Shown: positions 54,946 to 58,879 of the stretch, piece by piece
Numbering within the stretch: the stretch's first letter is position 1
Layout of the letters: the number at the start of each line of letters is the position of its first letter
NCBI RefSeq assembly: GCF_001486585.1
Contig: NZ_LN909044.1
Coordinates: forward strand, 62,001 to 126,000
Direction of reading: 5' to 3'
From: Paenibacillus senegalimassiliensis
Lineage (GTDB): Bacteria > Bacillota > Bacilli > Paenibacillales > Paenibacillaceae
DNA: 64,000 nt
Translations under genes and position numbers: made by a program
Notes under the pieces: generated by a model
The model's database searches: none
Seen by the model: the letters and a program-made list of their open reading frames with translations, nothing else
What the model was told of the DNA's origin: nothing

Positions 54946-54979
54946 CATCCTTGGAAGACGATTTTTTGAACTACCTCTA
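54946..54979 (-). mobile_element. MITE-like remnant between ctaC and ctaD
   Basis: Minus-strand reading TAGAGGTAGTTCAAAAAATC followed by GTCTTCCAAGGA matches the left end of copies A and C. Its first three bases are the TAG stop of ctaC. Right half absent. Confidence 0.65.
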
Positions 54980-56035
54980 GTAGGATAAGGTGCTGTTCGC
55001 CAGATACTCGGCGATGGCCTCAATCTCGGCATCAGTCAGCCCCAGGTCCTCCTTCGGACTTGGCATCTTGTTGCCCGGCTTCACCTTCTGCGGGTCAGTC
55101 AGCCACTCAACCAGGTTGTCCTTAACCGGCTTTCCGTTGATTGGATTGCCTGAAGCCTCGGCGTTATGTAGAATACTCGCCACCGTCTCCCGATTACCGA
55201 TCCCCGTCAGGTTAGGTCCAAGCGGTCCCCCCTGATCACCCACTGCGTGGCAGCTCAAGCACTGCGCCTTGAACACTTCTGCCAGCGCCGGGTCTTCAAT
55301 CGTCTGTACCGGAGCTTTCATCGATTCAATCCAGCGGTCGAAAGATTCCTGGCTTACAGCCTTAACCTTGAACTCCATGAAGGCATGGGAGGTTCCGCAC
55401 AATTCGGCACATTTGCCCAGGAATACCCCTTCATTGTCCGCCTCCAGCCAAGCCTTATTGATCGTTCCATCCGTGTTGGTATCCGTCTTGCCCCCCAGTG
55501 AAGGAACCCAGAACGAGTGCAGCACATCGGCCGTCTTCAGTTCAAGGGCAATCTTCTTCCCTGTTGGAATAATCAAATCCTGAGCCGTTGTTATCCCGTA
55601 TTCCGGGTAAGTGAATTCCCACCAATACAAATGCGAGGTGACTTTCACCTTGACCGCATTGGCATCCTTGGAATAATCCTCCCCAAAGGCAAACACCTTC
55701 TGTACCGTGGCTACCGCCAAAATCAGAACCAGTACCAGCGGAATCGCGGTCCAGAGGATCTCCAGCTTATGGCTGCCTTCAACCTGCTTGGGAATTTCCG
55801 TCTCCTCAGGCTTACGGCGGAATTTGATCCACACATAGGCAGCGATACCGAACACCACGAGCATTACGGCTACCATAATGGTAATCGACAACGTAATCAG
55901 CCCAAGTTGGCCTTGCGCCACAGGCCCTTGCGGCCTTAGCACGGACAGGTCTTCACGGCCACATGCGGACAGGATGAGCGACAGCATGGCAAACAAAGGC
56001 AATAGCCGCCTTACAGCCTTCCACGATTTCATCAT
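54977..56035 (-). CDS. ctaC: Cytochrome c oxidase subunit II with fused cytochrome c domain
   Basis: 352 residues. Lipoprotein signal with lipobox LSAC (Cys25), two membrane segments (about 47-72 and 93-116), the CuA domain with His173, Cys209, Glu211, Cys213, His217 and Met220 (CAELCGTSHAFM), and a C-terminal cytochrome c domain with haem motif CLSCH (259-263) and Met324. This makes the enzyme a caa3 oxidase. First gene of ctaCDEF. The stop codon coincides with the end of a repeat remnant. Confidence 0.95.
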   Translation of the reverse strand: MMKSWKAVRRLLPLFAMLSLILSACGREDLSVLRPQGPVAQGQLGLITLSITIMVAVMLVVFGIAAYVWIKFRRKPEETEIPKQVEGSHKLEILWTAIPLVLVLILAVATVQKVFAFGEDYSKDANAVKVKVTSHLYWWEFTYPEYGITTAQDLIIPTGKKIALELKTADVLHSFWVPSLGGKTDTNTDGTINKAWLEADNEGVFLGKCAELCGTSHAFMEFKVKAVSQESFDRWIESMKAPVQTIEDPALAEVFKAQCLSCHAVGDQGGPLGPNLTGIGNRETVASILHNAEASGNPINGKPVKDNLVEWLTDPQKVKPGNKMPSPKEDLGLTDAEIEAIAEYLANSTLSY

Positions 56036-56384
56036 TGATCTACCCCACTTCTTACGTTTTCTTCCGTTTCATTTCATCATTTCTGCACATACCCTTAAAA
56101 ATTGCGATTAATACCATGAAAAGCATGTTTATGTCAATTATAATGATCACCTATTAAATATATGATTGAACCCCTTTTTTGTCAATGATTCAACATCCGT
56201 TTCCAGTCTATTGGAAAACACACAAACCCTTGCTACGAAAGGGTTTGTTAACGGTTTCTATTTTTTACCCCATCCTTGAAAGGGCTCTCACAAATAGACC
56301 AGTAAAGGGCGTTTTTCCAAGTTACAGATTTCGCAATTTTTTGACATTTTTCTAAACTTTTCGACATTAAGACAAAAAAAGAGG
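56036..56384. other. Stretch between the cta promoter and the IS element
   Basis: 349 bp. Holds the cta promoter, an AT-rich run, a 10-bp hairpin ACAAACCCTT / AAGGGTTTGT (56222-56248) of unclear role, and the T-run half of the former map terminator at its right end. No coding frame with a ribosome binding site. Confidence 0.55.
56108..56137 (-). promoter_or_regulatory. Promoter of the ctaCDEF operon
   Basis: TTGACA (56137-56132), 18-nt spacer, TATTAA (56113-56108), ~75 bp before the ctaC start. Confidence 0.65.
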
Positions 56385-56396
56385 GGTTGCCCCCTC
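56385..56396. repeat. 12-bp target duplication, left copy
   Basis: GGTTGCCCCCTC directly outside the left inverted repeat; identical to 58039-58050. Confidence 0.9.
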
Positions 56397-56555
56397 AATG
56401 TCATTAAGTTAAGGAATGAGCCCAGAATCAAGAAAAAGAGCAGGTTATCGAAAAGATAGCCCGCTCTTTTTTTTGCGCCGACAACAAGGAAAAAGGCTTG
56501 ACAAGTGGTCTGAAATGTGTGGCGAAGCCCCTTGAAAAACGAGGAGGTTTTGTCA

Positions 56556-57872
56556 TTGAAAACATATGCGGACACGCTTAAAAAAACGCTGACCTCCCTG
56601 ATACAAGAGATGTCAGCGGCACCCGAACCTTATGTTAAACATCCCGGTAAGGACTTTACCCGAACGAAAAAGCTACCGTTTGAAACGGTGATGCAGCTCC
56701 TGATTTCCATGGGCGGCAACAGCCTGTACAAGGAACTTTTGGAATTGCAGGGCTATGACGTGAACACGGCGACCACTTCTGCTTTTGTTCAGCAGCGAAA
56801 TAAGATTCTTCCGTCTGCGGTGGAGGGCTTGTTTCACAAATTTACGCAATCGTACATGGATATCAAGGACTACCGCGGCTATCGATTACTGGCCATTGAC
56901 GGCTCAGATTTACATATTGCCACGGATCCTTTAGACACGAATACCTACTTTCAAAGCCAGCCGGACACGAAGGGCTATAACCTTCTTCATTTGAACGCAG
57001 CTTATGACTTGTGCAACCGACTTTACGTGGATGCGATTGTTCAGCCGCGAAGGTTATGTCATGAAGGGAAGGCACTAGCCGACATGGTGGACCGTTCCTC
57101 TATCCAAGGAAAAACCATGGTTATTGCGGATCGGGGTTATGAAAGTTACAACAATTTCGCACATATTGAACGCAAAGGGTGGAACTATGTCATACGAGTA
57201 AGGGATTCTAGCGGCATGGTTAGAAGCTTGCCGTTGCCTACAGATGGAGAGTTTGATCTCCCGGTTCACCTGACACTCACCAAAAAACAAACCAACGAGA
57301 TCAAGGCTCATCCCGAGATATACCGATTCGTCCCTGCTACTTCTACATTTGACTTTTTAGATCTGCGTGAGCACTTGTTTTACCCGATTTCCTTTCGGGT
57401 GCTTCGCCTCCACCTGCCTAACGGCGAATACGAAACGGTCATGACGAATCTTTCTGACGCTGACTTTCCGCCAGAGGAGATCAAATCTATCTATAATATG
57501 CGATGGGGCATTGAGACCTCGTTCAGGGCATTGAAATATACCGTCGGTTTGACGAACTTTCACGCGAAGAAACGGGAGTTCATCCTCCAAGAGATTTTCG
57601 CAAGAATGATCATGTACAACTTTGCTGAAATGATGACCTCGCACGTCTTCATTTCCCAAATGGATAAGCGGCACCCCTACCAAGTCAACTTCACGGTGGC
57701 CGTTTACGTTTGTAGACAATTTCTGCGCTCAAGAGATGATGATCCCCCGCCCGATGTTGAAGCACTGATTCGCAAGAACCTTTTGCCGATTCGGTCCCAT
57801 CGCCCCGGGCAGACGAATACGCGCAAAGTCCGCTCGCAATCAGTCGTTAGCTTCGTTTATAGAGTAGCATAA
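56556..57872 (+). CDS. IS4 family transposase
   Basis: 438 residues from a TTG at 56556 with AGGAGG eight bases upstream. DDE triad: Asp115 (LLAIDGSDLHI), Asp192 (MVIADRGYESYNN) and Glu320 in the IS4 motif YNMRWGIETSFRALK. No frameshift or stop, so it should be active. The rare start codon keeps expression low, as is usual for transposases. Confidence 0.93.
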   Translation: MKTYADTLKKTLTSLIQEMSAAPEPYVKHPGKDFTRTKKLPFETVMQLLISMGGNSLYKELLELQGYDVNTATTSAFVQQRNKILPSAVEGLFHKFTQSYMDIKDYRGYRLLAIDGSDLHIATDPLDTNTYFQSQPDTKGYNLLHLNAAYDLCNRLYVDAIVQPRRLCHEGKALADMVDRSSIQGKTMVIADRGYESYNNFAHIERKGWNYVIRVRDSSGMVRSLPLPTDGEFDLPVHLTLTKKQTNEIKAHPEIYRFVPATSTFDFLDLREHLFYPISFRVLRLHLPNGEYETVMTNLSDADFPPEEIKSIYNMRWGIETSFRALKYTVGLTNFHAKKREFILQEIFARMIMYNFAEMMTSHVFISQMDKRHPYQVNFTVAVYVCRQFLRSRDDDPPPDVEALIRKNLLPIRSHRPGQTNTRKVRSQSVVSFVYRVA

Positions 57873-57894
57873 TTCAATAGGGATGAACATTTTT

Positions 57895-57917
57895 AAAGCG
57901 GACATTCCATCCGCTTT
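57895..57917 (+). terminator. Terminator of the transposase gene
   Basis: AAAGCGGA pairs with TCCGCTTT. A second hairpin AAACAAACG / CGTTTGTTT (about 57951-57990) follows inside the IS. Confidence 0.7.
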
Positions 57918-58038
57918 GTTTGCTGTACGCATTTCCAATTGTCTGCATAAAAAAACAAACGACACAGGATTTTCCTTATGCCGTTTGTTTCCCCATCACC
58001 AATTATCATTTTGTCTCTAGGCTTAACTTAATGACATT

Positions 58039-58050
58039 GGTTGCCCCCTC
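58039..58050. repeat. 12-bp target duplication, right copy
   Basis: GGTTGCCCCCTC, one base from the stop codon of map. Confidence 0.9.
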
Positions 58051-58051
58051 T

Positions 58052-58807
58052 CTACTCTCCGCCAGACAGCACTACCGGTCCATCCTCCGTGATGGCCAGC
58101 GTGTGCTCATAATGCGCACCCAGGCTTCCATCCGCTGTTCGAATGGTCCAACCATCATTCTCCCATAAGACAGCCCCGGTCTCGCCACCGGTAAATATCG
58201 GCTCAATGGTGATCACCATACCTGGCTGCAAGGTAATCCCTGTATGAGGTCGGCCGAAATTTGGCACATCCGGCGCTTCATGCATGACTCGGCCAATACC
58301 ATGCCCAATCAAAGACTTCACGATGCCGATTCTGGATGCCTTGGCTACTCGCTGGACCGCATAACCGATGTCACCGAGCTTATGCCCCGGCATAGCCTGA
58401 GCAATACCTGCCAGCAGGGCCTGCTCTGTTACCGTCAGCAGGTTCTCTGCCGCCTCGCTAACCTCGCCGATCCGATACGACCAACCCGAATCCGCCAGCC
58501 AGCCCTTCCTGTTCACCACGATATCGATCGTTACGATATCTCCCGCTTCCAGCTTACGCGTCCCGGGAAAACCGTGGCACACCACATCGTTGACCGAAGC
58601 ACAGGTCGCGTAGGGGAACCCGTGATACCCCTTCTGCTCCGGAATCGCCCCGCGTTTAGCCAGGAATGATTCCACAAATGCATCAATCTCCATCGTTGTG
58701 ATTCCCGGTCCAATCAGCTTCGCAATGCCTTGGTGGCATTCCGCAAGAATGATACCCGCATCGCGAATTCGAGCAATCTCATCTTTTGTTTTTAAACGTA
58801 CCTTCAC
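58052..58807 (-). CDS. map: Methionine aminopeptidase, type I
   Basis: About 251 residues from GTG 58807 (GGAAGGGAG upstream); an ATG at 58828 is also possible. Removes the N-terminal methionine of new proteins. The pita-bread fold metal ligands appear in order: Asp in VTIDIVVNRKG and the following Asp (WLADSGW), His in GHGIGRVMHEAPDVPN, Glu in MVITIEPIF and Glu in LWENDGWT. It is not in the usual ribosomal-protein operon, so it may be a second copy. Its terminator is split by the IS. Confidence 0.9.
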   Translation of the reverse strand: MKVRLKTKDEIARIRDAGIILAECHQGIAKLIGPGITTMEIDAFVESFLAKRGAIPEQKGYHGFPYATCASVNDVVCHGFPGTRKLEAGDIVTIDIVVNRKGWLADSGWSYRIGEVSEAAENLLTVTEQALLAGIAQAMPGHKLGDIGYAVQRVAKASRIGIVKSLIGHGIGRVMHEAPDVPNFGRPHTGITLQPGMVITIEPIFTGGETGAVLWENDGWTIRTADGSLGAHYEHTLAITEDGPVVLSGGE

Positions 58808-58879
58808 GTTCCATTGTCTCCCTTCCATGCTCCACTTCCGTCTCTGCTCATTCAAGACAGCTTGGCTTAGACAAAAAAA

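Follow-up and report, generated by a model that had tools for sequence, protein, structure and literature searches.

An IS4-subgroup insertion sequence next to map in Paenibacillus senegalimassiliensis and its apparent preference for terminator hairpins

The target of Escherichia coli IS4 has the form AAA-N20-TTT, and an insertion of this element in the pheST attenuator was reportedly described by Mayaux in 1984. IS231A, which like the element presented below belongs to the IS4 family and has a GC-rich symmetric target, follows the rule GGG(N5)CCC. Terminators near the ends of insertion sequences (IS) shield the transposase from outside transcription.

The IS4 subgroup of the IS4 family was described by De Palmenaer et al. 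(2008, PMC2266710). Its members share with our element a DDE transposase with a YREK motif, a target site duplication (TSD) of 10-13 bp and ends of the form -AATR--------WTW; the word 'terminator' is absent from the main text of that paper, and the reading of the target arms as bidirectional terminators is that of the present analysis. ISRm22 and other ISs target REP elements (Tobes and Pareja 2006, PMC1525189, a table of which also includes IS4, at 3/11, for a Shigella flexneri genome). ISRm22 is an IS4-family member which, like ours, is inserted in palindromic DNA, in its case palindromic repeats, but ISRm22 and similar elements go to REP sequences and not to terminators. Bacterial class C group II introns are directed to intrinsic terminators (PMC3522654, citing Robart 2007), as our element appears to be; they are, however, retroelements which insert downstream of the hairpin, whereas ours is a DNA transposon found in its centre. 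A link between IS4-type elements and terminators was not found in the open-access literature searched, and subscription papers may contain one. What appears to be new is the location of IS4-type elements at bidirectional terminators; arm specificity in the IS4 family, REP targeting and the group II introns are already in print.

The element and its empty site

The window, i.e. the whole stretch of 64,000 nucleotides that was analysed, contains an element (Table 1) whose limits are given by a second copy in the same genome, 100% identical over exactly the same bases, by perfect terminal inverted repeats (TIR) and by the TSD. Its single gene product gives a match to Pfam DDE_Tnp_1 and, above cut-off, to the NCBIfam model for IS4 family transposases NF033592. 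The putative catalytic triad, deduced from motifs, is D128, D205 and E333 (spacing 77 and 128), and the YREK motif, YNMRWGIETSFRALK, is at residue 326; both agree with the family definition of PMC2266710, D(60-110)D(100-150)E plus Y(2)R(3)E(6)K, as do the single-ORF transposase and a TSD of about one helix turn (10 bp). By comparison of the end signature with Table 1 of the same paper, CAATGTCATTAAGTTAA was found to carry the -AATR--------WTW---- pattern of the IS4 subgroup (TSD 10-13) and to start with CAA, not with the CAT of the IS231 subgroup. Judged by its sequence, the element is an IS4-subgroup insertion sequence.

Table 1. Features of the element and of its surroundings (positions in the window)
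Feature	Position	Strand	Details
Cytochrome c oxidase subunit II gene	54977..56035	-	next gene seen along map transcription; Pfam COX2, COX2_TM, Cytochrom_C
Remnant of map terminator, left junction	56374..56396	-	6-bp stem and T-tract
Left copy of target duplication	56386..56395	.	10 bp, GTTGCCCCCT
IS4-family insertion sequence	56396..58039	+	1644 bp; 100% identical second copy, TIRs, TSD
Left terminal inverted repeat	56396..56412	+	17 bp, CAATGTCATTAAGTTAA
Left subterminal terminator-like hairpin and T-tract	56429..56475	+	-26.3 kcal/mol, z -8.2
Transposase gene	56517..57872	+	451 aa, DDE and YREK motif; single ORF of the IS
Right subterminal terminator-like hairpin, then T-tract	57949..57992	-	-23 kcal/mol, z -6.2
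Right terminal inverted repeat	58023..58039	-	same 17-mer, perfect match to left end
Right copy of target duplication	58040..58049	.	10 bp, GTTGCCCCCT
Remnant at the map-side junction	58040..58051	-	first arm, loop, one C of second arm
map, type I methionyl aminopeptidase	58052..58855	-	its terminator is the target

Removal of the IS and of one target copy rebuilds, on the minus strand and directly after the map stop codon, the sequence TAG-AGAGGGG-GCAA-CCCCTCT-TTTTTT, whose folding energy is -16 kcal/mol (z -3.0; 1/200 shuffles equally good). That this hairpin is more than a product of chance follows from the targets of the relatives, which show the same (see below). The empty site is, we conclude, an intrinsic terminator directly 3' of map.

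The reconstruction confirms what an earlier note on this DNA had proposed, namely that the joined flanks form a map terminator hairpin with a GCAA loop on the minus strand, but it modifies several details. The first arm begins immediately after TAG and not one base later; six T, and not seven, lie beyond the 7-bp stem, the count of seven holding only with the arm's last base; and the duplication, put at 12 bp, is of 10 bp, as in relatives whose ends are unambiguous, the 12-bp direct repeat also taking in the outermost base of either IS end (C and G). The note also had one arm left on each side. Instead, because of the target duplication, the left junction retains a whole 6-bp stem followed by a T-tract (minus strand 56396-56381, GAGGGG-GCAA-CCCCTC-TTTTTTT). 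The map-side junction forms no stable hairpin, its fold being no better than those of shuffles (z -0.36).

Targets of the close relatives

The two IS copies of the genome are identical. The second reaches a contig edge and has one flank, so that there is one testable target in the genome itself; a pattern search there for a guessed hairpin at the other flank of the second copy gave no exact match. Two sources were used for relatives: named genome contigs, with 66 loci (59 under a Paenibacillus title), and exact matches to the TIR in the host family (80/394 genomes, 116 regions read). From these came 224 unique flanks, and 57 distinct empty sites could be reconstructed: 46 for group A, the close group of the window IS (45 of them from other genomes), 6 for group B and 5 for group C. 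When proteins were searched across the class, 5/398 genomes, our own included, had matches, and one locus matched among viral contigs. Sixteen of the 46 are pairs of contig edges joined solely by an identical 10-bp TSD; a possibly false pair (L052 with L023) was counted as a miss, and L010 with L005, a cross-contig pair that shares its TSD but comes from different genomes, was discarded as false.

Some copies have unusual surroundings. In L010 (2279-4242), about 100 bp of the left end and 99 bp of the right end of another copy enclose a full-length IS without matching TSD; the arrangement is nested or resembles that of a MITE. A near-identical IS right end, together with terminator and upstream flank, recurs in L084, L087, L093, L102, L157, L161 and L162, that is, in six genomes from three genera of the host family; it is perhaps a fossil end carried by another mobile module, or an end kept for its terminator.

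A hairpin with a score of at least 7 was present on the duplication in 40 of the 46 group A sites, versus 6.0% of about 20,000 random flank positions; since the score counts G-T pairs it depends slightly on the strand, and 40/46, for the transposase orientation, becomes 41/46 for the sites as stored. At a score of at least 10, the values were 33/46 and 0.64% of the same number of positions. The hairpin axis was within 1 bp of the duplication centre in 39/46 sites, so that the window's own site, which is 2 bp off, is not a typical one. Strong hairpins centred to within 1 bp were found in 32/46 sites against 0.8% of 15,000 control positions (up to 120 bp 3' of an ORF and not within any ORF; P = 2.5e-57), i.e. 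most copies are centred on intrinsic terminators beyond the 3' intergenic chance level. A hairpin accompanied by a tract of 4 A or T characterized 35/46 sites versus 0.6%; the hairpin of score 7 was absent from 6/46 sites and the combination of hairpin and tract from 11/46. Among the 23 sites with long flanks, 21 had a stop codon at most 150 bp upstream and 22 were outside ORFs of at least 120 aa. Selection after insertion contributes to all these values, the sites having been drawn from databases.

The suggestion that the IS may seek terminator stems as a safe landing place, to be checked on the targets of other copies, has thus been followed up on 46 distinct sites. Stem seeking is borne out for the close group, and safety fits with the position of the sites near stop codons and outside ORFs and with the terminators which the IS brings along. 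There is thus strong support for the view that, in most cases, the window IS and its close relatives insert at the centre of the hairpin of a (predicted) transcription terminator.

The logo (201 flanks, including 111 unpaired unique flanks used there only and one likely chance match, L074; group B and C loci excluded) begins with A (-20 to -17) and a G-rich arm, followed by C (-9/-8), four free positions and G (-3/-2). It pools left and right IS ends, and the target is symmetric because the pooled pattern recurs on both sides of the empty sites. The resulting order is A-tract, GC arm, CC...GG apex, mirror arm and T-tract, as in a bidirectional terminator. At distances of 3 to 8 from the centre, mirror positions paired more often than expected from column composition, and in the 35 strongest hairpins the axis was at -0.07 bp from the TSD centre (sd 0.66), the tract edges having an sd of 2.6-2.7 bp. 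Tracts on both sides were commoner among targeted hairpins (19/30) than among terminator-like hairpins from 800 kb of the own genome (19/142), and so was the CC..GG apex (50% of 36 versus 12% of 142), the insertions coming from many genomes and the comparison terminators from one. The target is therefore a symmetric, sequence-biased subset of terminators.

A linear consensus alone was tried and rejected: scores of at least 14 were reached at 14 places in 862 kb of the own genome, 9 of them hairpins, and by 37 insertions, 35 of them hairpins (P = 0.0125), numbers which are small and a comparison which is circular in that logo and score were trained on the same insertions. A first consensus scan, of 340 kb of flanks, went in the same direction with few matches.

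Targets of the more distant relatives

The transposase of E. coli IS4, from the same family, is 22% identical to that of the window. The sample was not random: 18 loci were fetched of 2739 matching records, 17 from two 'spread' lists of rows without insG annotation, which avoids K-12 repeats, plus the K-12 place. After merging of loci with the same target (L287/L297, L288/L289/L290 and L293/L299) 14 distinct targets were left; L289 has no exact TSD and scores 4.4 on its own. Nine of them are hairpins (score of at least 7, versus 6.2% of 4000 local positions), all hit at offset 0.0 despite TSD lengths that range between 11 and 14 bp. They are next to glgP, bamD, a cold-shock gene, pdxK-crr, tRNA-Pro, mdh, mug-rpoD and aroA, or correspond to an inverted repeat of which one occurrence is on a plasmid and one on a chromosome. 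Most of the five other targets (the K-12 place, a 2Fe-2S gene, yicI, azuC and ygeA) keep, as read by eye, the A-tract, the T-tract or both. IS4 is like the window IS in its centred hairpins and A/T-tract flanks and, as judged by eye, also has terminator-like hairpins close to its ends; it differs by the divergence of its transposase, its variable TSD and the 5/14 targets without hairpin.

Group B (72-74% identical) has all of its six sites inside the palindrome AGGWGCANTANTGCWCCT, which, with at most 1 mismatch, was found at 75 and 84 places in two group B genomes (G201 and G240) and, under the same tolerance, nowhere in our own genome. This palindrome is often in arrays with a 51-bp spacing (group B loci L158 and L164-L168). 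In group C (46% identical), four of the five sites, all from one genome, are 10 bp inside the apparent end of an IS3-type element; at the three sites examined there was at least one adjacent gene each, HTH_Tnp_1 at two and an rve transposase at two. The fifth, from another genome, resembles the opposite end of IS3-type elements by sequence likeness alone. One IS has thus landed in another, at the same place of four apparent IS3-type ends (L176-L179 with L304-L309), and the ends L191 and L192 belong with this observation.

IS1675, from Lactococcus and Enterococcus plasmids, has a transposase 43% identical to ours, the same 17-bp end in its Lactococcus copies and an exact 10-bp TSD in 6/10 copies fetched. 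It differs by its target, GTATAC in 9/10 copies, several of the plasmid sites sharing flanks and not being independent. On one Lactococcus plasmid (L229), two IS1675 copies stand head to tail with a 10-bp GTATAC target between them, close to a gene whose annotation is that of an Fst-family type I toxin.

Probable exchange of terminators and recognition of the target

The left subterminal hairpin faces transcripts entering from the left and folds on the minus strand too. The right one, not listed by a simple consensus terminator scan, is where map transcripts arrive about 60-100 bases past the stop codon. Groups A, B and C contribute 28, 5 and 3 distinct complete copies, and an inward-facing terminator-like hairpin was present at the right end in all 36 and at the left end in 33/36 (28/28 and 27/28 in group A). 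Having such structures near both ends, the IS probably replaces the host terminator that it breaks, in either orientation, an anatomy which hints at how an element might move and leave its host unharmed. The left terminator, in the window and in relatives, has a longer stem and a wider tract spacing than most targets, features which might protect it from self-insertion.

The reading that we favour, with a probability of about 0.85 for the whole, is that this symmetric-target IS of the IS4 subgroup lands on terminator dyads, that termination is exchanged and that double-stranded DNA is read by a transposase dimer. The transposase would pick a two-fold symmetric target defined by an A-tract and a T-tract about 20 bp apart, GC arms, and CC/GG near the edges of the duplicated 10 bp. 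Bidirectional intrinsic terminators supply such sites, and the IS therefore lands on the hairpin dyad just 3' of genes, as the statistics of the collected sites show. The host hairpin is broken by the insertion, and the IS hairpins, ~30 to 90 bp inside both ends, would probably stop transcripts; termination would be exchanged rather than lost, as far as the anatomy goes. Double-stranded reading by a dimer is the most likely mode of recognition, because apex bases and tracts are preferred, most of the non-hairpin IS4 sites keep tracts and the group C targets are not palindromic.

The same symmetry could be perceived as DNA shape, i.e. as an extruded cruciform or a single-stranded hairpin. This is a possibility to which pairing in excess of column composition, a TSD centre that is bound more closely to the hairpin axis than to the tracts and, at insertion-trained scores of 14 or more, the surplus of hairpins among insertions all lend some weight. 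We nevertheless consider it less likely than double-stranded reading: most of the five non-hairpin IS4 targets keep an A-tract, a T-tract or both (by eye), group C targets are not palindromic, and the targeted hairpins are a subset of terminators defined by sequence.

It is also conceivable that targeting is coupled to transcription, the transposase being drawn by paused or terminating RNA polymerase or by local supercoiling. The location of the sites at terminators is what this would give, but group B and C targets are unlike terminators. Moreover, at the 45 sites with known IS orientation, tracts of 4 were on both sides in 20 cases, on the transposase-3' side only in 11, on the 5' side only in 7 and on neither in 7; there is thus no strict orientation, and we regard such a coupling as improbable.

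Near-random insertion, followed by a selection leaving copies only in harmless places 3' of genes, is very improbable. It agrees with the 21/23 long-flank sites close to a stop codon, where insertion is tolerated, but harmlessness leaves the centring to within 1 bp unexplained: the 32/46 versus 0.8% of positions in the same kind of intergenic DNA rules it out as sole cause, and related subgroups target other specific sequences. Least probable of all is the IS231-like rule GGG(N5)CCC, which the earlier note had recognized in the window's own site: that site can be so read, but the motif was found in 0/46 sites within the duplication, 2/46 at ±1 bp and 4/46 at ±2 or 3 bp, and the polarity, being mostly the opposite one (C at position 2 and G at position 9 in 26/46, G/C in 9/46), is not that of IS231A.

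To return to the favoured reading, recognition of symmetric double-stranded DNA at terminator dyads, we lean towards extending it to the IS4 subgroup with its E. coli founder included: these elements would read terminator symmetry, insert at the dyad and make a transcriptionally neutral exchange of terminator for terminator, sister groups having been re-aimed to a species-specific palindromic repeat, to GTATAC or to IS3-type ends. If the favoured reading is true, there is a rule of sequence and symmetry for the landing sites of an IS lineage, which would explain how such elements spread with little harm, and target recognition becomes testable (double-stranded symmetry versus hairpin extrusion). 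IS4-type copies would then be both disruptions and replacements of terminators, and may change read-through between neighbouring genes.
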